From assembly GCA_016124495.1 (NCBI GenBank), contig WGNP01000013.1, forward strand, positions 1 through 64,000: a stretch of 64,000 bases of DNA. The letters are read 5' to 3'. The notes under the pieces were generated by a model. That model was not told the DNA's origin. It did no database searches and was given only the letters and a program-made list of their open reading frames with translations. Position numbers and translations under genes: made by a program. This DNA comes from Hyphomonas sp. (GTDB lineage Bacteria > Pseudomonadota > Alphaproteobacteria > Caulobacterales > Hyphomonadaceae). Shown here in pieces: positions 4,211 to 38,698 of the stretch; position 1 is the first letter of the stretch, and every line of letters starts with the position of its first letter.

Positions 4211-5797
4211 ATGCGCCCATCCCTTGCCGCCCTCGCCGCCAGCCTCACCGTCCTCGCCGCTTGCGCAACCCCGCCCGAAGCCGCCGCGCCGCAGGCAGAC
4301 GCACAACTTGTCCAGGCCCGAGAACCCGTAACGCCGGTCCAGTCCGCTGACGCCTATTACACCAGCGCTGCCGCCGCCGTGGACGCCCGCATCGCGGCGC
4401 GCGGCGCAAAACCCGCAAAGAACGTCATCCTCTTCATCGGCGACGGCATGGGCATTTCCACCATCACCGCCGCGCGCATCTATGCCGGCCAGTCCGCGGG
4501 CCAAGACGGCGAGAGCCACCACCTGGCGATGGACGACCTGCCGTATTCGGCCCTCTCCAAGACCTACAGCCACAATTTCCAGATCGCCGATTCGGCCGGC
4601 ACCGCCGTCGCAATGGTCAGCGGCATCAAGACCCTCTCAGGCGTCCTCGGCGTCAACAGCAGCGTCAGCTATGGCAACTGCGCCAGTGTTCCGGGCACGG
4701 AAGTTGACACACTGTTCGAACTTGCCGCCCGCGCCGGCCTCTCCACCGGCCTTGTCTCGACCGCCCGCATCACCCACGCGACGCCCGCCTCCGCCTTCGC
4801 CAAGGTGCCGCTGCGCGACTGGGAAGCCGACAGTGACATGAAGGGCGCGTCTTCCGATACCTGCAAAGACATCGCCCGCCAGCTGATCGAATGGCCGGAA
4901 GGCAGCTTTGACATCCTTCTCGGCGGCGGGCGCTCGAAATTCCTTACGAAGGAAACACCGGACCCGGAATATGACGGCAAGACCGGCGACCGCACCGATG
5001 GCCGCAACCTGACCGAAGAATGGACCGCCAAGTCACCCGACCACAAGTTCGCCTTCGACAAGGCCGGCTTCGATGCGACCGATTTCACCACTGGCGTCAA
5101 GCTGCTCGGCCTGTTCGAGCCGTCCCATATGCAGTACGAACTTGACCGCGAAGCTGACAAGGCGGGCGAACCCCACATCGCCGACATGACCCGGGCTGCG
5201 ATCACGCGCCTGTCGCAGGACGAGGACGGCTATGTCCTGATGGTCGAAGGCGGGCGCATCGACCACGGACATCATGCCGGCAATGCGATCCGCGCGCTGG
5301 AAGACGCGATGGCCTTCGACGCCGCGATCGCCACCGCGCTCGAAATGACCAACCCGGAAGAGACGCTGATCATCGTGACGGCTGATCATTCGCACACGCT
5401 GACGATTGCCGGCTATGCGCAGCGGAACAACCCGATCCTCGGCATCTCCGCCTCAGGCATTGGCGGCGAAGGCGGCTCCACCGGCGCCGACGGTCTTCCG
5501 TACACGACGCTTGGCTATGCTAACGGCCCTGGCGCCTGCCGCGAGAACGGCAAGGATGCCGAGGGCAAACCGGTCTTCGACTGCAACCGCCAGGATCTGA
5601 CCGGCGTCAACACGCTGGCGCCGGATTTCCGCCAGCCGGCTCTCGTGCCGATGTACTCGGAAACACATGGCGGCGAGGACGTCGCCGCCCTCGCCTCCGG
5701 TCCGGGCGCAAACCTCGTCACCGGCGTCATCGAGCAGAACGAACTCTTCCACGTCATGGGCCGCGCCCTTGGCCTGATCCCGGCCCCGACATACTAA
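4211..5797 (+). CDS. Alkaline phosphatase (PhoA family), lipoprotein-type signal
   Basis: KNVILFIGDGMGISTITAARIY, DSAGTAVAM, EGGRIDHGHHAGNA, VTADHSHT. Confidence 0.95.
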   Translation: MRPSLAALAASLTVLAACATPPEAAAPQADAQLVQAREPVTPVQSADAYYTSAAAAVDARIAARGAKPAKNVILFIGDGMGISTITAARIYAGQSAGQDGESHHLAMDDLPYSALSKTYSHNFQIADSAGTAVAMVSGIKTLSGVLGVNSSVSYGNCASVPGTEVDTLFELAARAGLSTGLVSTARITHATPASAFAKVPLRDWEADSDMKGASSDTCKDIARQLIEWPEGSFDILLGGGRSKFLTKETPDPEYDGKTGDRTDGRNLTEEWTAKSPDHKFAFDKAGFDATDFTTGVKLLGLFEPSHMQYELDREADKAGEPHIADMTRAAITRLSQDEDGYVLMVEGGRIDHGHHAGNAIRALEDAMAFDAAIATALEMTNPEETLIIVTADHSHTLTIAGYAQRNNPILGISASGIGGEGGSTGADGLPYTTLGYANGPGACRENGKDAEGKPVFDCNRQDLTGVNTLAPDFRQPALVPMYSETHGGEDVAALASGPGANLVTGVIEQNELFHVMGRALGLIPAPTY

Positions 5798-5813
5798 TCC
5801 GCCAGGGCGCGGA

Positions 5814-6099
5814 CTATTTCGAGAAGATCGCCGCGGCGTCGAAATACTCGCGCCATAAGGTGATCCGCCTGTTCTCGACCACCCAGACGCCCGCTGCCGG
5901 CAACTCGGCCCAGCCGGTGGCGAGAAGAACGCCTCCAGCACCCCGCGCACCCCGGCCGGGCCAATGGCCTTGCCCATCGGCATGTTCCCGCAGGCCAGCC
6001 TTCCGCGATCAGCGTCATCGCTGCGTCATAGCCGAAGGCGGTGGCGGCATTCAGAAAGGCATGCACCGTCTAAGCAGCAGACATGCGGGTCGTCGTCAT
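5814..6099 (-). pseudogene. Degraded limonene-1,2-epoxide-hydrolase/SnoaL-like gene
   Basis: MTTTRMSAA(TAG)TVHAFLNAATAFGYDAAMTLIAEG then frame change to MPMGKAIGPAGVRGVLEAFF, central part missing, then frame change to LATGWAELPAAGVWVVENRRITLWREYFDAAAIFSK*. Confidence 0.8.
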
Positions 6100-6122
6100 G
6101 TCAGGTCTCCTTAGCCCGGGGC

Positions 6123-6548
6123 TCAGTGAGCGGACTTAAGTGCGCCGCTGGCCAGCAGCGGCACCATGAGCAGGATCACCAGCACTATGTTCGACACCGC
6201 GTTGAGCGCAAAACCGGTCGAAACTGAGAACGCGCTGTCGATCACGAACCATATCAGCATCGCCGTCGTCAGCCCGCGCCAGGCGGGCGCGCCGGCCGCA
6301 TGGATCGCCGGCAGCAGGAAAAGGATCGTAAAGCCCCATCCGAGCGTCACGGCGCCCATCAGGGCCACCGAAAAACGCATGCCGGGCGGATCAAAATAGC
6401 CAGCCTCCACTTGCGCGCCGCCGATCAGGCTGAACGCAAGACCCGCGATACCCTCCGTTGCCGGAAGCCCCGCGGTCGCCAGCACCGCGCCAAAAATAAT
6501 GACGCCCCAGCACCAGAGCGTGATCCATGTTTTCCAAAGCCCGGTCAT
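6123..6548 (-). CDS. Small integral membrane protein, unknown function
   Basis: MTGLWKTWITLWCWGVIIFGAVLATAG..., about 4 TM segments. Confidence 0.75.
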   Translation of the reverse strand: MTGLWKTWITLWCWGVIIFGAVLATAGLPATEGIAGLAFSLIGGAQVEAGYFDPPGMRFSVALMGAVTLGWGFTILFLLPAIHAAGAPAWRGLTTAMLIWFVIDSAFSVSTGFALNAVSNIVLVILLMVPLLASGALKSAH

Positions 6549-6655
6549 GCGTCTCTCCTGCCTTGATGTTGCTGCATCCTGGCCCCGGCGGCGTAAGCTG
6601 CGCAATTACCTGCGAGGTCATGGACTCGCGCGCGCGTGCCTGCGAGCATAAACCC

Positions 6656-7459
6656 ATGAGCCTGCGTAACCCCGCCCTGCCCGCTGCCGAAAGCGATGCC
6701 TTTGCCGCCCTCCTGCGCCGTTTCCGCGCCGCGCGCCGGATGAGCCAGCTGGACCTCGCTCTCGATTGCGATGTCTCCCCCCGCCATCTCTCCTTCCTTG
6801 AAACCGGCCGCGCCAAGCCGAGCCGCGAGATGGTGCTGCAGATTTGCGAAGGGCTCACCCTCCCCCTCGGCAGCCAGAACGCACTTCTCAAGGCGGCCGG
6901 TTATGCCGCCGTCTTCCCGGATTCTCCGCTCGAGTCCGAAGCGCTCGGCCCCTTCCGCGTCGTGCTCAGGGAAATGATGGACCGGCACGCCCCCTGGCCA
7001 GCCATCCTGTGCGACCGCCACTGGCGCGTGCGCGGCACCAATGCCACCGCCGCCGCCTTGCTCACGCCGCTGCAAGCCGAGGCCGGCGAGACCAGCCTCG
7101 TCCGCATACTGACGGACAATCCCGCCGCCGAAGCGATGATCGCCAACCTGCCGGAAGTCGTCCACGAGATGCGCGGCCGCATCGCCCTCGAAGCCCTTGA
7201 AGCGGCGGGCGACCTGGTCCTGCGCGACCTGCTCACCGCCCTCGACGCCGCCAGCCTGCGCCACCCCCTGCCCGGCGGCGTACACCGCCGGCCGCTTGTG
7301 CCCCTGATCATCAACGTGCCCCGCGGCCAGCTGAGCTTTCTCTCCACCATAGCCCATTTCGGCACCAGCGAAGACGTCACCATCCGCGACCTGCGCCTCG
7401 AACTCCTGTTTCCGGCGGATGACTTTACGCGCACGGCGCTGAAGGCGATGGCGAGCTAA
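6656..7459 (+). CDS. XRE-family HTH regulator with MmyB-like C-terminal domain
   Basis: LLRRFRAARRMSQLDLALDCDVSPRHLSFLETGRAKPSREMVLQ...DRHWRVRGTNATAAAL. Confidence 0.9.
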   Translation: MSLRNPALPAAESDAFAALLRRFRAARRMSQLDLALDCDVSPRHLSFLETGRAKPSREMVLQICEGLTLPLGSQNALLKAAGYAAVFPDSPLESEALGPFRVVLREMMDRHAPWPAILCDRHWRVRGTNATAAALLTPLQAEAGETSLVRILTDNPAAEAMIANLPEVVHEMRGRIALEALEAAGDLVLRDLLTALDAASLRHPLPGGVHRRPLVPLIINVPRGQLSFLSTIAHFGTSEDVTIRDLRLELLFPADDFTRTALKAMAS

Positions 7460-33527: not shown

Positions 33528-34228
33528 TTAGCCGCCAACCGGGCTCTCGCCCGGAGCGGTGTCCGGCCCGGCGACGTCTTTCGGTTTTTCGCTGCCGCCT
33601 TTGCCGATCATCAGCTCGCGGCCCGCGAGCATCCCGCCCGTCATCTGCAGCGCGAAGCGTTCCTCGTCGCGGCGGCGCAGTTCCTCGATGGCGTCGTCGA
33701 TGGCGCCTTCCGACTCGCCGAGACGGTCGAGCGCCAGCCGCGGCACGATCGCCAGATCCAGATGGAGACCATTTTCTGCACCTTCGGCTTGGCAAGGTCG
33801 CCGCGCTCCTGCAGCGTCTGCATGACGATGGCGGTGGAGCTCAGCACGAAGCCAGCGCCTGCGATCAGCGAGTTTTGCGCCGAATATCCGAGCGCGACCG
33901 CGGCCCAGGAGAGCAGCAGGATCCAGGTGAGGACCTGCACAAGGCCCAGGCCGAAGATCTGCTGGCGCATCCCCCACTGGCGCGCGGGCTGCATCTCCAG
34001 ACCTGTAGTAAAGAGGGACGTCACCACACCGAGTTCGGCGACGTGCAGAATTTCGGCAGGCTCTGTGAGCAGGTGCAAGCCAAACGGGCCGATGCCGAGG
34101 CCGGCGGCAAGATAGCCGGGCGCCGAGCCGAAGCCGATACGCTTGAAGACGGGCACGGCGATCACGGCGGAGCCGAGCAGTATCACGAGGGCGCCCAGAT
34201 CGGGCCCACGGGCAACTTCGGCGGCCAT
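33528..34228 (-). pseudogene. KefB/CPA2-type cation:proton antiporter remnant with large internal deletion
   Basis: N-terminal TM part MAAEVARGPDLGALVILLGSAVIAVPVFKRIGFGSAPGYLAAGLGIGPFG... to QKMVSIW, frame change at DLAIVPRLAL, then directly into C-terminal tail ESEGAIDDAIEELRRRDEERFALQMTGGMLAGRELMIGKGG. Confidence 0.8.
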
Positions 34229-34321
34229 GCCCTCTTTCCCCGTTCGGCTGCAGCCGGCCTTACAGCACGCAGGCTGGCTCGCAAGACAGGAGATTGGATT
34301 CCGGCGCGGGCTGGACTAGGC

Positions 34322-35080
34322 ATGAGACGAATGACAAGCGCTCCCGCCCTTTCCGTGCTGATCCCCTTCTTCAATGAGGCGGGCAATGTGCATCCCGTAA
34401 TCGACGAGGTGCATGCCGCGCTGGCGGGCATCGATTTCGAGGTGATCTGCGTCAACGATGCGTCCGGCGACGCAACCGGCGCAGAGCTGGCGGAGGCAAA
34501 GGCGGCGCATCCGGATACGGTGACGGTGCTGACCCACGTGCAGCGGCGCGGGAAATCCGCCGCGCTGTTCACCGGCCTCAGATCCGTGCGCGGAGAGTGG
34601 GTCCAGCTGCTCGACGGCGACGGGCAGAATGATCCGAACGATACAGCGCGGCTCTGGCAGGCGCTGATCGCACTGGGCGCGCCCGGCAAGCTCGGCATCA
34701 TTGCCGGCAGGCGGAGCAGCCGCAACGATTCCGGATTCAAGTGGGTCCAGTCGCGCGTCGCCAACGGCGTGCGCCGGTTCGTGCTGCAGGATGATGCGAC
34801 CGATACGGGCTGCGGCTGGAAACTGATCCGTACGCAAGCCTTCCGCGAACTGCCCTATTTTGCCTCGATGCACCGCTTCCTGCCGGCGCTGGTCAAGCGG
34901 GGGGGATGGGAAGTGCGCGAGGAGTTGGTGAACGACCGGCAGCGCCTGGCAGGACAGTCAAAGTACGGCTTCATCGGGCGCCTCGGCGCGGGGATCTTCG
35001 ACCTGATCGGGATGTTCTGGCTGGTGCGGCGCGGCGGATATGGCGTCGCCGCCGAGTGGAATGATCCACGCGGCGGTTAA
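34322..35080 (+). CDS. Family 2 glycosyltransferase
   Basis: LSVLIPFFNEAGNVHPVIDEV...VICVNDASGDAT...VQLLDGDGQNDPND. Confidence 0.93.
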   Translation: MRRMTSAPALSVLIPFFNEAGNVHPVIDEVHAALAGIDFEVICVNDASGDATGAELAEAKAAHPDTVTVLTHVQRRGKSAALFTGLRSVRGEWVQLLDGDGQNDPNDTARLWQALIALGAPGKLGIIAGRRSSRNDSGFKWVQSRVANGVRRFVLQDDATDTGCGWKLIRTQAFRELPYFASMHRFLPALVKRGGWEVREELVNDRQRLAGQSKYGFIGRLGAGIFDLIGMFWLVRRGGYGVAAEWNDPRGG

Positions 35081-35087
35081 ACCCTTA

Positions 35088-36521
35088 TCAGTCCTGGTCT
35101 CGGCGGCGGGATTCATCCTGGCCACCGTCATCCGGGCGGCTGTCGCCGCGTCCAACCCAGCCGGCGTTATCGCCGTCTCCGCCCCAGCGGCTTTCGCTCG
35201 GCGGCGGAGGCGGTGGGGGTGGCGGCGGAGAAACAGCCGCCGGCGTGCTGCGGCCTGCGCCCGTGCCGAAGATTCCGCCCCCGGACATTCCGTCTCCGAA
35301 CCGGCTACCGCCGCGGCGGTCATCGCTGCCGCCACCCGCTCCGGCATCATCGCCGCCGCGCGGCGTTTCCGTACCCGGACCGCCAAGCAGGCCGTCCGAC
35401 GCACCACCGCGCCCGCCCCAGCCTTCGCGGCCCCCACGAGGCTCGCGCGGAATATCAGCCGGCGGTGTCACGATTGCTGTGTCGAGATCGTTTCCGGGAG
35501 TCCAGCTTCCGCCATCCCCGCCGCCGCGTCCGTCACGCCAGTCCCGTACGCCCCGGCCATCGCGGCCCGGACGTGGATCTTCCGGTATCGGTGACACGGT
35601 AGGGGTGCCTCCGGCGCCGGGTCCCCAGCGATCGCCGGGAACATCGCGCACCGGACGGTCGTCGCGATCATCGCGGTCGCCCCGACCGCCTCCGCCGTCG
35701 CCGTCGCCGTCACCCGGGCGCCAGTCGTGTCCGCCGCCGCCGCGGCCATCCCGATCATCGCGGTGGTCACGGTCGCCCCGGCGCCACTCACGCCAGTCAT
35801 CGCCGTGGCGCCCGTCGCGCCAGCTCCAGTGGCCATGCCGCCAGTCGGACCGGTGCCAGTCCCAGCCAGCCCAGTAGGGGTTGATCACGCTCGGGCGTGG
35901 GTGACGCCGGTAGGTCGTCGTGTAGCGGATTGTGCCGCGCGGGCCCCAGGCAAATCCGTAAGGATCATAGCCCCAGGTCGGGCTGTAATAGCCGTAGCGG
36001 TGGTAGTCCGGCGAATAGCCATAGTGAAAGACGCTGAGGCCCCAGGAGCTGGCATAGCCGTAGTTCCATGTGTCATAGCCATAGCTCTCGTTGTTGGCGT
36101 AGCGGATGTAGCCATACTTGTCGCGCGAGAAGAGGAGGCCGTGCGCAGCCTCGGTATACTCGTATATCGGGCGGACGGAGGACACACGTCCCGCAAGGCC
36201 AAACCAGCCGAGGTCGCTGACATCTTCCCTTATGAACACGCAGCGCCCGGTGAAGTTCTTATGCTCGCACAGCTCCCATTGACCGGCGAAGACGGCGACT
36301 GAACGCGTCTGGTCGTTGAAGGCAAGGTCATGCAGGTTGGCGAACGGGTCATAAGCGTCGCGAATGTCGCCGTAGAAATTCTTGTCGCCGAAAAGGGCAA
36401 TGGCAGCCGGAAGGTCATCACCCCGCCCGTAACTCGTTTCATACTGAGCGAAGGCGGCGGGTGCGCAGAAGATTGCGGGAGCGGTCAGTGCGACAACGGT
36501 GCATAAGGATAAACGGCGCAT
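35088..36521 (-). CDS. Secreted beta/gamma-crystallin-like protein with long Arg/Asp/Gly-rich tail
   Basis: Signal peptide MRRLSLCTVVALTAPAIFCAPAAFAQ; crystallin-like AIALFGDKNFYGDIRDAY...RSVAVFAGQWELCEHKNFTGRCVFIREDVSDLG; tail with DRDDRD/GGG runs and P10. Confidence 0.8.
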   Translation of the reverse strand: MRRLSLCTVVALTAPAIFCAPAAFAQYETSYGRGDDLPAAIALFGDKNFYGDIRDAYDPFANLHDLAFNDQTRSVAVFAGQWELCEHKNFTGRCVFIREDVSDLGWFGLAGRVSSVRPIYEYTEAAHGLLFSRDKYGYIRYANNESYGYDTWNYGYASSWGLSVFHYGYSPDYHRYGYYSPTWGYDPYGFAWGPRGTIRYTTTYRRHPRPSVINPYWAGWDWHRSDWRHGHWSWRDGRHGDDWREWRRGDRDHRDDRDGRGGGGHDWRPGDGDGDGGGGRGDRDDRDDRPVRDVPGDRWGPGAGGTPTVSPIPEDPRPGRDGRGVRDWRDGRGGGDGGSWTPGNDLDTAIVTPPADIPREPRGGREGWGGRGGASDGLLGGPGTETPRGGDDAGAGGGSDDRRGGSRFGDGMSGGGIFGTGAGRSTPAAVSPPPPPPPPPPSESRWGGDGDNAGWVGRGDSRPDDGGQDESRRRDQD

Positions 36522-36600
36522 CAGGGGACCCTTTCGTCCGGTACGCCTGCAAAATGACACGGGCGATATGAACCGCTCGCAACATGCGGGCCAAGAGCTG

Positions 36601-37158
36601 CTATTCGCCGTCCTCGCCCGCAGGTTTGCCGGTTCCCGGGTCGCTCCAGACGGCGAGCTCGGGGATCACGACGCGGCGCGCCGCAACATCCACCACTGGC
36701 ACATCAGCCTGTGTGAAGGGCACGAACACGCTGGAAGCGAGGCCCGTCACATCGACTTCCAGGAGGTCGCCCGATCCGAAATTCTGCACCGAGCGCACTC
36801 GCCCGGCAGGCGAATCGCCGCCGGAATAAACGTCCATCCCCGCAAGGTCCTCGACATAGAACTCGTCGTCCTCAGCCGCCGGCAGGCGCGCCCGCGGCAC
36901 ATAGATGAGGCGGCCGCGCAGCGCGTCCCATTCTTCTTTCTGAAGGGCCTCTTGCGGGCGGACGATGAAATGGTCCTTGCCGGCCCGGGCCGTTTTCGGC
37001 GTCAGCAGCACGGTGCCCGCTTCGTTCATCAATGGACCATAAGTGAACAGCGCTTCCGGATCGGACGTATAGCTCTTCACGCGGACTTCGCCGCGCACAC
37101 CATGGGCGCCCCGCAGGACGCCCACCGCAATTAGTCTGTCATCAGGTTTGGCTGCCAT
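36601..37158 (-). CDS. rimM: Ribosome maturation factor RimM
   Basis: AVGVLRGAHGVRGEVRVKSYTSDPEALFTYGPL...VEDLAGMDVYS. Confidence 0.95.
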   Translation of the reverse strand: MAAKPDDRLIAVGVLRGAHGVRGEVRVKSYTSDPEALFTYGPLMNEAGTVLLTPKTARAGKDHFIVRPQEALQKEEWDALRGRLIYVPRARLPAAEDDEFYVEDLAGMDVYSGGDSPAGRVRSVQNFGSGDLLEVDVTGLASSVFVPFTQADVPVVDVAARRVVIPELAVWSDPGTGKPAGEDGE

Positions 37159-37262
37159 ATCCCGCTTCTACAGCATCGGGCAGTTTCTTCGAAACACCCT
37201 GATGCTGTAGTTCTTGATTTTGTCGCGGCGTTTTTCCGAAAACCGGTTCCCACTTTTCGAAG
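37158..37262 (-). repeat. Palindromic intergenic element, copy 2
   Basis: Minus strand GAAAAGTGGGAACCGGTTTTCGGAAAAACGCCGCGACAAAATCAAGAACTACAGCATCAGG...CCCGATGCTGTAG; same module order as 9430-9524. Confidence 0.75.
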
Positions 37263-37270
37263 CGCCGCTC

Positions 37271-38155
37271 CTAGCGGCAGAGCACGTCCGAGAGCACACT
37301 CCCCGGCGCTTTATAGACAGCTTCCGCGAAGCCCTGGTCCTGGCAGAAGCGCGTGGCGGCGCCGTCGTGGTTTGAGATCCGGGCGCCGCGGCGGGTTGGC
37401 GACGGGTAGAACATCGTCTGTTCTCCGCGCACGCCCCCGGCCCCGCCACCAACGCCCCCGGGCGGATAGACCGGATCAACCGGCCGGCGCCACGGGCCTT
37501 CCCGGCGCACATCATAGCGGCGGAAGGACGATATCTTGTCGTTCAGGTAGATGTCGCCGAGATTATCCAGCGAGGCATCGATGAACTCGCACGTCCCGCG
37601 ATAGTCGGCATGTTCGCAGACGAGCCAGGCGCCCCGGTTGACCAGAACCGAGCTGGCCGTGTCGTTGAACCGGTACTGGTTGAGCGTCGCCTCGCCTTCG
37701 TCAAAACCGAGGAACGGGCCGCGAAAGTCACCGTTCGCGAAGAACGCAATATCATAGCTCATCGGACCCTTGTCGTATGCCGTTGCCTGCGCCGAGGAGA
37801 TGTTGGCCGAGAGGTTGATGTCACCGAGATTGCGCACCGTGCGGTCAACATACTCGCAGCGCCCGCGCAGATTCGAGTCCGAACACAGCAGCCACACCCC
37901 GCCCTTGACCTCGACGCTGCGGGCCTTGTCGTTGAAGCGGATGGTGTTGAAGTTCAGCGTGTCGCCGGTCAGCTCGACAGACGTGCCGCGCAGGCCGGTG
38001 TCGGAATAAAGCACGATCGCAGCGGGACCTGCTGGAGGCGGCGGGCGGCGGCGCCCCTCCTCATCGTCGTCTTTCTGCGCGTCGGCACCGGGGACTGCCG
38101 CAAGGATCAGCAGGGCAATGGCGAGGACAGACTGCGAGAAGAGATCGCGGGGCAT
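37271..38155 (-). CDS. Secreted protein with two beta/gamma-crystallin-like domains
   Basis: AIVLYSDTGLRGTSVELTGD...RFNDKARSVEVKGGVWLLCSDSNLRGRCEYVDRTVRNLGDI and DIAFFANGDFRGPFLGF...RFNDTASSVLVNRGAWLVCEHADYRGTCEFIDASLDNLGDI. Confidence 0.85.
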   Translation of the reverse strand: MPRDLFSQSVLAIALLILAAVPGADAQKDDDEEGRRRPPPPAGPAAIVLYSDTGLRGTSVELTGDTLNFNTIRFNDKARSVEVKGGVWLLCSDSNLRGRCEYVDRTVRNLGDINLSANISSAQATAYDKGPMSYDIAFFANGDFRGPFLGFDEGEATLNQYRFNDTASSVLVNRGAWLVCEHADYRGTCEFIDASLDNLGDIYLNDKISSFRRYDVRREGPWRRPVDPVYPPGGVGGGAGGVRGEQTMFYPSPTRRGARISNHDGAATRFCQDQGFAEAVYKAPGSVLSDVLCR

Positions 38156-38305
38156 CGGAAAGTCTCCAGGTTGTGGAGAGATTTCTGCCGCGCTGCATCT
38201 GAACGGCTCATGCCGGCGCCGTTGGCCAGCATTCATCTGCACGCCAACAAAAACAGCCAGCACCCCTTCCGGAACGCTGGCTGCCTGTCGGCCTTGAGGG
38301 CAGGA

Positions 38306-38698
38306 TTACTCGGCTTCAGCCGGCTCGGCAGCGGCAGCGGCCTTAGCGGCGGCCTTGCCGGCGCGCTCCTTGGCGCGTTCCTGGGCTTTCTTGCCGGGCT
38401 CGCCCTTGTTCGGGTTGTTGCCGTTGGTCCAGACAGCGACCGGTTTGCCGTCGACTTCGACTTTCGAGAGGAAGCGCAAAACGCGGTCGGTCGGTTGGGC
38501 GCCTTTTTTGATCCAGTCGGCGGCCTTGACGGCGTCAACTTTCACGCGCTCGGCGGAATCCTTGCCGAGGCGCGGATCATAGGTACCGATCTTTTCGATG
38601 AAGCGGCCGTCACGCGGGGCGCGCGCGTCGGCAACGACGATCGAATAGAAGGGGCGTTTCTTGGACCCGCCGCGGGCGAGCCTGATTTTGAGGGCCAT
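38306..38698 (-). CDS. rpsP: 30S ribosomal protein S16
   Basis: [42 protein letters not shown]. Confidence 0.97.

Follow-up and report, generated by a model that had tools for sequence, protein, structure and literature searches.

In the window analysed here, a 64,000-nt stretch of Hyphomonas sp. DNA (GenBank assembly GCA_016124495.1, contig WGNP01000013.1, positions 1 to 64,000), two minus-strand genes, designated crysA and crysB, encode true β/γ-crystallin proteins, with a similarity to known crystallins that is far beyond chance. The two genes lie on either side of rimM, and the unit kept in relatives is crysA-rimM-crysB, not rpsP-crysA. We hold it to be reasonably probable that CrysA and CrysB are exported structural proteins of the envelope or matrix, that they have co-regulated promoters of their own, and that their position at rimM is an old insertion. 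The crystallin domains, signal sequences, C-x(8)-C pairs, rpsP terminator, shared upstream element and genus-wide synteny behind this proposal were all read from sequence. To our knowledge, the physiological roles of bacterial β/γ-crystallins are mostly unknown, and a literature search found no paper linking Hyphomonas with this family.

CrysA and CrysB are β/γ-crystallins with export signals

The two genes and their parts are as follows.
37271..38155, minus strand: crysA, 294 aa, exported two-domain β/γ-crystallin with a Cys-containing C-terminal extension (PF00030, two stretches)
37784..38029, minus strand: crysA domain 1, aa 43-124; Ca2+ motifs degenerate (NDKARS, SANISS)
37514..37759, minus strand: crysA domain 2, aa 133-214; both Ca2+ motifs canonical (NDTASS, NDKISS)
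35088..36521, minus strand: crysB, 477 aa, exported, one crystallin domain, a Tyr/Gly-rich region and a Gly/Arg/Asp/Pro-rich tail (PF00030, alignments)
36165..36410, minus strand: crysB crystallin domain, aa 38-119; Ca2+ motifs degenerate (NDQTRS, AGRVSS)
35952..36164, minus strand: crysB Tyr/Gly-rich conserved region, aa 120-190 (alignments; Hyphomonas and one sister genus, g18)

Both proteins scored well above the curated PF00030 cut-off of 25 bits (crysA, E 4.8e-24, 84.7 bits; crysB, E 1.4e-12, 48 bits), and no other gene of the genome matched the family. When the two sequences were searched against those of solved structures, the matches were vertebrate γ- and β-crystallins. The first-motif signature (Y/F)xxxx(Y/F)xG was present as YSDTGLRG (with Leu as the second aromatic), FANGDFRG and FGDKNFYG. 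The AlphaFold (AF2) model of CrysA had a predicted local distance difference test score (pLDDT) of mostly 80-96 across both domains, and Foldseek matched it to β/γ-crystallins with an E of 1e-14 and a probability of 1.00. Superposition of both domains together gave a low overall template-modelling score and a root-mean-square deviation of ~12 Å, as a difference in domain orientation would produce.

The original prediction, made from the DNA letters alone, had described a two-domain crystallin-like gene between rpsP and rimM and a one-domain gene with a tail downstream of rimM, both on the operon strand and both secreted. Coordinates, strand, order and domain counts proved right, the family assignment was borne out by the profile and structure-database searches, and the crystallin fold was recovered in the CrysA model and, for CrysB, in its sequence matches. 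Sec-type signal sequences are predicted in both proteins, with cuts expected near GADA-QK in CrysA and near AAFA-QY in CrysB. The shared motifs listed in that prediction have a real common core, but their exact forms in the alignments are FND-x-x-(R/S)-S-V and W-x-x-C-x(8)-C. The latter is invariant in every crystallin domain, and its C-x(8)-C pair could form a disulphide, in keeping with export.

The Tyr/Gly-rich region of CrysB had no Pfam or NCBIfam match and, among 200 genomes of the order, was restricted to Hyphomonas and g18; as judged from these comparisons it is a lineage-specific region and a new point. A one-sequence search with the C-terminal extension of CrysA gave no match in any other of 289 genomes across the class, and the extension was present in the aligned close relatives. 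Both genes are under purifying selection, with a ratio of nonsynonymous to synonymous substitution rates of about 0.1-0.3 (0.03-0.10 for crysB residues 1-190); all parts are constrained, the crysB tail least.

In a domain tree, crysB domain 1 formed one lineage across Hyphomonas and g18 (99/99), apart from the crysA domains; the deep forks were weak because only 83 columns were available. The two genes had been called paralogs, which holds only in a distant sense, the tree placing crysB domain 1 and the crysA domains in separate lineages already present in the ancestor of the genus. A Caulobacter sp. crystallin (L155) grouped with neither, with weak support. Within Hyphomonas, the second crysB domain has disappeared from the clade of the window, whose crysA has acquired the Cys-containing extension.

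The conserved unit is crysA-rimM-crysB

The minus strand of the window reads ffh, chorismate mutase, rpsP, crysA, rimM and crysB. Beyond crysB lie a plus-strand GT2 glycosyltransferase gene, a broken Kef-type antiporter gene, trmD, rplS and leuC. The following features bear on transcription.
38306..38698, minus strand: rpsP, 30S ribosomal protein S16 (PF00886, E 2.1e-26)
38254..38283, minus strand: intrinsic terminator after rpsP, CAGCCAGCGTTCCGGAAGGGGTGCTGGCTG then TTTTTGTT (13-bp stem, ΔG -20.6)
37159..37270, minus strand: 112-nt crysA-rimM intergenic insert with two hairpins, similar to repetitive extragenic palindromes (fold z -6.0)
36601..37158, minus strand: rimM, 16S rRNA processing and 30S maturation factor (PF01782, E 8.9e-15, and PRC-barrel)

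We read the locus in 40 Hyphomonas genomes. Throughout the genus the gene order rpsP-crysA-rimM-crysB is constant: crysB lay downstream of rimM in all 40 loci (contig ends cut a few, and that of L099 is frameshifted) and crysA upstream of rimM in 39, genome G019 being the exception. In L099, from the one-contig assembly G100, the crysB frame (5401-7120) is broken by frameshifts that reflect either sequencing error or a pseudogene. Elsewhere in the Hyphomonadaceae, crystallin genes occur between rpsP and rimM in g18, in g19 (Ponticaulis, with two or three genes), in g21 and in one g14 genome. In the Henriciella-like g15, a two-domain crystallin gene lies directly upstream of rimM in 14 species whose rpsP is located at another place, 190-540 kb off where a single contig holds both. 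Fixed placement, which the original prediction had proposed for checking in relatives, therefore holds in Hyphomonas and several sister genera, and the arrangement is not peculiar to one strain. Near rimM, no crystallin gene was found in other families of the Caulobacterales.

In 38 of 39 Hyphomonas loci, direct search revealed a GC-rich hairpin followed by a T-run 18-43 nt downstream of rpsP; the stem sequences have diverged between loci while the pairing is kept, and in the window the hairpin lies within a stretch of fold z -3.9. A consensus terminator scan did not list it, but direct search and folding both show it. This conserved terminator rules out co-transcription of the crystallin genes from rpsP as the default. 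Between rpsP and crysA lie 146-202 nt, except in two species with ~2.4 kb, in which an opposite-strand gene for a 659-aa OafA-like acyltransferase (family assigned by eye; L049, L056) is inserted, while the crysA-rimM gap of these two species is still 10 nt. Most members of the window's clade have 9-10 nt between crysA and rimM, and the other clade has 42-53 nt; in the window and one close relative, this gap is enlarged by a structured, partly repeated insert of ~100 nt. The rimM-crysB gap is 60-94 nt. The terminator, the gap lengths and the splitting of rpsP from crysA by insertion identify crysA-rimM-crysB as the kept unit, and this conserved crystallin-rimM unit is a new point. Since crysA usually lies 9-53 nt from rimM, rimM is probably transcribed from the crysA promoter, as far as spacing can indicate, and it is more plausible to regard rimM as added on to the crysA transcript than the other way round.

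The genes had originally been taken as embedded in an rpsP-rimM-trmD cluster and as linking secreted proteins to ribosome biogenesis. The window does hold the four genes of the proteobacterial rpsP-rimM-trmD-rplS operon in the same order and on the same strand, but they are split by the terminator, the two crystallin genes, the opposite-strand glycosyltransferase gene and the antiporter remnant. With a terminator after rpsP, an upstream element specific to the crystallin genes (see below) and an opposite-strand gene before trmD, the ribosomal-operon reading is not supported; of the link to ribosome biogenesis, the position is real and nothing beyond it was found.

It is possible, though we doubt it, that the arrangement reflects positional inertia, that is, an ancestral insertion in the rpsP-rimM gap that was never selected, with crystallin and rimM transcription independent of each other. 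The genera g16, g17, g20 and g22 have no crystallin gene at the rimM locus and retain rimM; the gap holds a GNAT-type acetyltransferase gene there, and rpsP and rimM are directly adjacent in one g14 genome, which together mark the gap as a tolerant insertion site. In addition, G019 lost crysA with rimM undisturbed. Set against this are the crysA-rimM spacing, which stays at 9-53 nt genus-wide with two close relatives excepted, and the crysA-rimM pair, which holds together where rpsP is separated.

Several further features of the locus were recorded alongside. The acetyltransferase (~167 aa, family assigned by eye) is conserved in those g16, g17, g20 and g22 loci that were read (L159-L165, L172), and in several cases its gene directly follows rpsP without a terminator. 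A third, divergent crystallin gene with a GTG start lies between rpsP and crysA in L047 (7011-7655) and L054 (6516-7181). Partial copies of the 112-nt insert of the window (37159-37270) occur at three other places in the genome.

crysA and crysB share an upstream element

Alignment of the upstream regions revealed GTTGC-N5-GTTCAG before crysB and an inverted copy before crysA, with the general form GTT[A/G]-N6-[A/G]TTCA.
38221..38236, plus strand: crysA shared upstream element, reverse orientation (GTTGGCCAGCATTCAT on the plus strand); kept in 36/36 crysA genes
38199..38204, minus strand: conserved GTTCAG half-site, 44-49 nt upstream of the crysA start (crysA upstream alignment)
36568..36583, minus strand: crysB shared upstream element, forward orientation (GTTGCGAGCGGTTCAT); kept in 36/36 crysB genes

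Among Hyphomonas crystallin genes with proper starts, the element was found in 72 of 74, always reversed before crysA (36/36) and forward before crysB (36/36); the two genes lacking it are the extra crystallin genes of L047 and L054. First-order Markov resampling gave an expectation of 0.13 in 74, and none of 340 neighbouring control genes carried the element. Across the family it preceded 95 of 106 crystallin genes at 30-115 nt from the start, including all 15 in Ponticaulis, 5 of 8 in g15 and none of 3 in g21. In forward orientation, the TTG of the element and a -10-like box stand ~17 nt apart by eye, and by this spacing the element may overlap the promoter. The shared element is likewise a new point.

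Known regulators were compared as candidates. The alphaproteobacterial LexA box is GTTC-N7-GTTC; its period is 11 bp, against 10 for the element, and a LexA site was rejected. The half-sites of the element are spaced by about one helical turn, like those of OmpR-type regulators, and the sites of the alphaproteobacterial envelope-stress regulators ChvI and CenR are likewise short, two-part and placed before envelope genes. However, the form found here matches neither the published Caulobacter ChvI motif TTGC-N3-GCAA (PMC9731502) nor the CenR motif TGA-N8-TGA (PMC9275681), a mismatch taken up again below.

The genome of the window has eight exact matches to the element. Two of these are the crystallin sites; of the others, the ones that were examined fell mostly inside genes, and no wider regulon could be named from the eight. 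In 18 genomes, a stricter form of the element was commoner than its reversed control, and much of this may be coding sequence. A different sequence, GGAAC-N16-CGGTTA, which by eye resembles an EcfG-type general-stress promoter, stands upstream of one crystallin gene in Ponticaulis (L089-L092).

Canonical Ca2+ motifs are retained in one of the three crystallin domains

The canonical Ca2+ motif is N/D-N/D-x-x-S/T-S, two per domain. Only two of the six motifs in the window proteins are canonical, both in crysA domain 2. The first motifs of crysA domain 1 and of crysB have Arg at position 5, which presumably disables the site. From these motifs, Ca2+ binding is predicted for crysA domain 2 only, so that the earlier description of both proteins as probably Ca2+-binding applies, as a prediction, to that domain and not to crysA domain 1 or CrysB. 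The other Hyphomonas clade has canonical sequences at all four crysA motifs (21/21 species), and its second crysB domain is canonical too; domain 1 of crysB, in contrast, has degenerate motifs in 36 of 37 Hyphomonas. That Ca2+ sites can be given up for stability is familiar in the superfamily, to judge from the title of Suman et al. 2011 as cited in PMC3551895.

This pattern bears on the proposal that CrysA and CrysB are caulollin-type Ca2+-responsive proteins, exported partly unfolded and folding with Ca2+, which would act as Ca2+ sensors or as a Ca2+-triggered matrix glue. The two canonical motifs of crysA domain 2 and the intact crysA sites of the other clade are in its favour, as are the caulollins of Caulobacter, a genus of the same order, which become ordered on Ca2+ binding according to PMC13171946. 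We nevertheless think it unlikely, given the four degenerate motifs of the window and the near-universal degeneration of crysB domain 1; AlphaFold also folds both crysA domains confidently, a result still compatible with Ca2+-dependent folding.

A probable structural role in the envelope or matrix

The structural reading is favoured because predicted export and disulphides, a non-enzymatic fold, a low-complexity tail and shared regulation all fit it. A common regulator would bind the shared element before crysA and crysB; the crysA promoter would yield a joint, or nearly joint, transcript of crysA and rimM, and crysB would be driven by a promoter of its own between rimM and crysB. Once exported by the Sec route, the domains, stabilised by predicted disulphides, may act as rigid, non-enzymatic structural modules, with Ca2+ stabilising or cross-linking crysA domain 2 and, presumably, all crysA domains of the other clade. 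Domain 1 of CrysB would have dropped Ca2+ binding, the protein being tethered via its Tyr/Gly-rich region and Gly/Arg/Pro-rich tail. The place beside rimM would be an old insertion retained through shared transcription and not through a ribosomal function, and a ribosomal role for the exported crystallins is unlikely.

Several observations weigh against this reading. The CrysB structure model was unusable (pLDDT 33), leaving its fold to sequence similarity. The 112-nt structured insert could reduce crysA-rimM co-transcription in the species of the window, and terminators can leak, which makes some read-through from rpsP possible. G019 has swapped crysA for an unrelated exported protein while keeping rimM and crysB, and the mismatch with the ChvI and CenR consensus sequences counts against either of these as the regulator. 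The replacement in G019 (L052, between 9177 and 10072, minus strand) is an unrelated predicted exported protein beginning MKVLLVLVVLAAAMPFHAVGEDASPSG.

A bolder version, which we regard as speculative and rather unlikely, would place RimM in a regulon for envelope stress or the matrix: through GTTGC-N5-GTTCAG, a dedicated and as yet undescribed regulator would fire the crysA-rimM and crysB promoters together and so tune ribosome maturation with a crystallin-based outer layer, in which the Tyr/Gly-rich region of CrysB would be a new matrix-anchoring module.

A role as secreted I36-type (SMPI-like) protease inhibitors, a group that shares the crystallin fold, appears improbable for the two proteins. 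CrysA does exceed the PF03995 Inhibitor_I36 cut-off (38.3 against 21.1 bits), a cross-match to be expected because the I36 fold is itself the crystallin fold. The Crystall profile scores far higher and covers both crysA domains, and the profile search gave no I36 match for CrysB. A direct functional tie of the crystallins to ribosome biogenesis or RimM, for which the conserved neighbourhood could be cited, is very improbable, as the terminator and the dedicated regulatory element insulate the crystallin genes from rpsP, sister genera keep rimM without a crystallin gene at the locus, and export signals on both proteins mean that they would not meet the cytoplasmic RimM.

Relation to known crystallins

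Caulollins (Caulobacter), vibrillin (Vibrio), Protein S (Myxococcus) and M-crystallin (Methanosarcina) belong to the same Pfam family, PF00030, and to the same signature class, including N/D-N/D-x-x-S/T-S motifs as in crysA domain 2. PMC13171946, citing Jobby and Sharma 2007, describes the caulollins as presumably periplasmic, of micromolar Ca2+ affinity and ordered on binding; they are likewise presented as a pair. Unlike these microbial crystallins, crysA and crysB flank rimM in a ribosomal neighbourhood and share a conserved upstream element, and CrysB differs further in the loss of both Ca2+ motifs, in its Tyr/Gly-rich region and in a long tail of low complexity. The vertebrate lens γ- and β-crystallins, two-domain Greek-key proteins, were the best solved-structure matches by sequence and fold; in contrast to them, the Hyphomonas proteins are bacterial and exported, keep some Ca2+ motifs, share only ~20-25% identity with them and, in CrysA, have the Cys-containing C-terminal extension.

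The conserved locus, the crystallin-linked cis-element and the variation in Ca2+ sites over ~40 species together offer a direct route to the regulator and the role of these proteins. The locus also suggests that a housekeeping ribosome-assembly gene is carried on an envelope-protein transcript.

Neighbouring genes and database records

34322..35080, plus strand: GT2 glycosyltransferase gene, between crysB and trmD and convergent with crysB (7-nt gap; PF00535, E 2.5e-24)

Three metagenome-assembled genomes (L101, L102, L113) are titled Candidatus Sulfopaludibacter or Acidobacteria and have Hyphomonas-like loci; these records are probably mislabelled. The Kef-type K+/H+ antiporter remnant (33531-34243, minus strand) matches residues 6-171 and 542-611 of the antiporter at L057, which is intact (611 aa), and thus lacks its middle part. 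Decay of the antiporter gene is further advanced in the close relative L044 than in the window.

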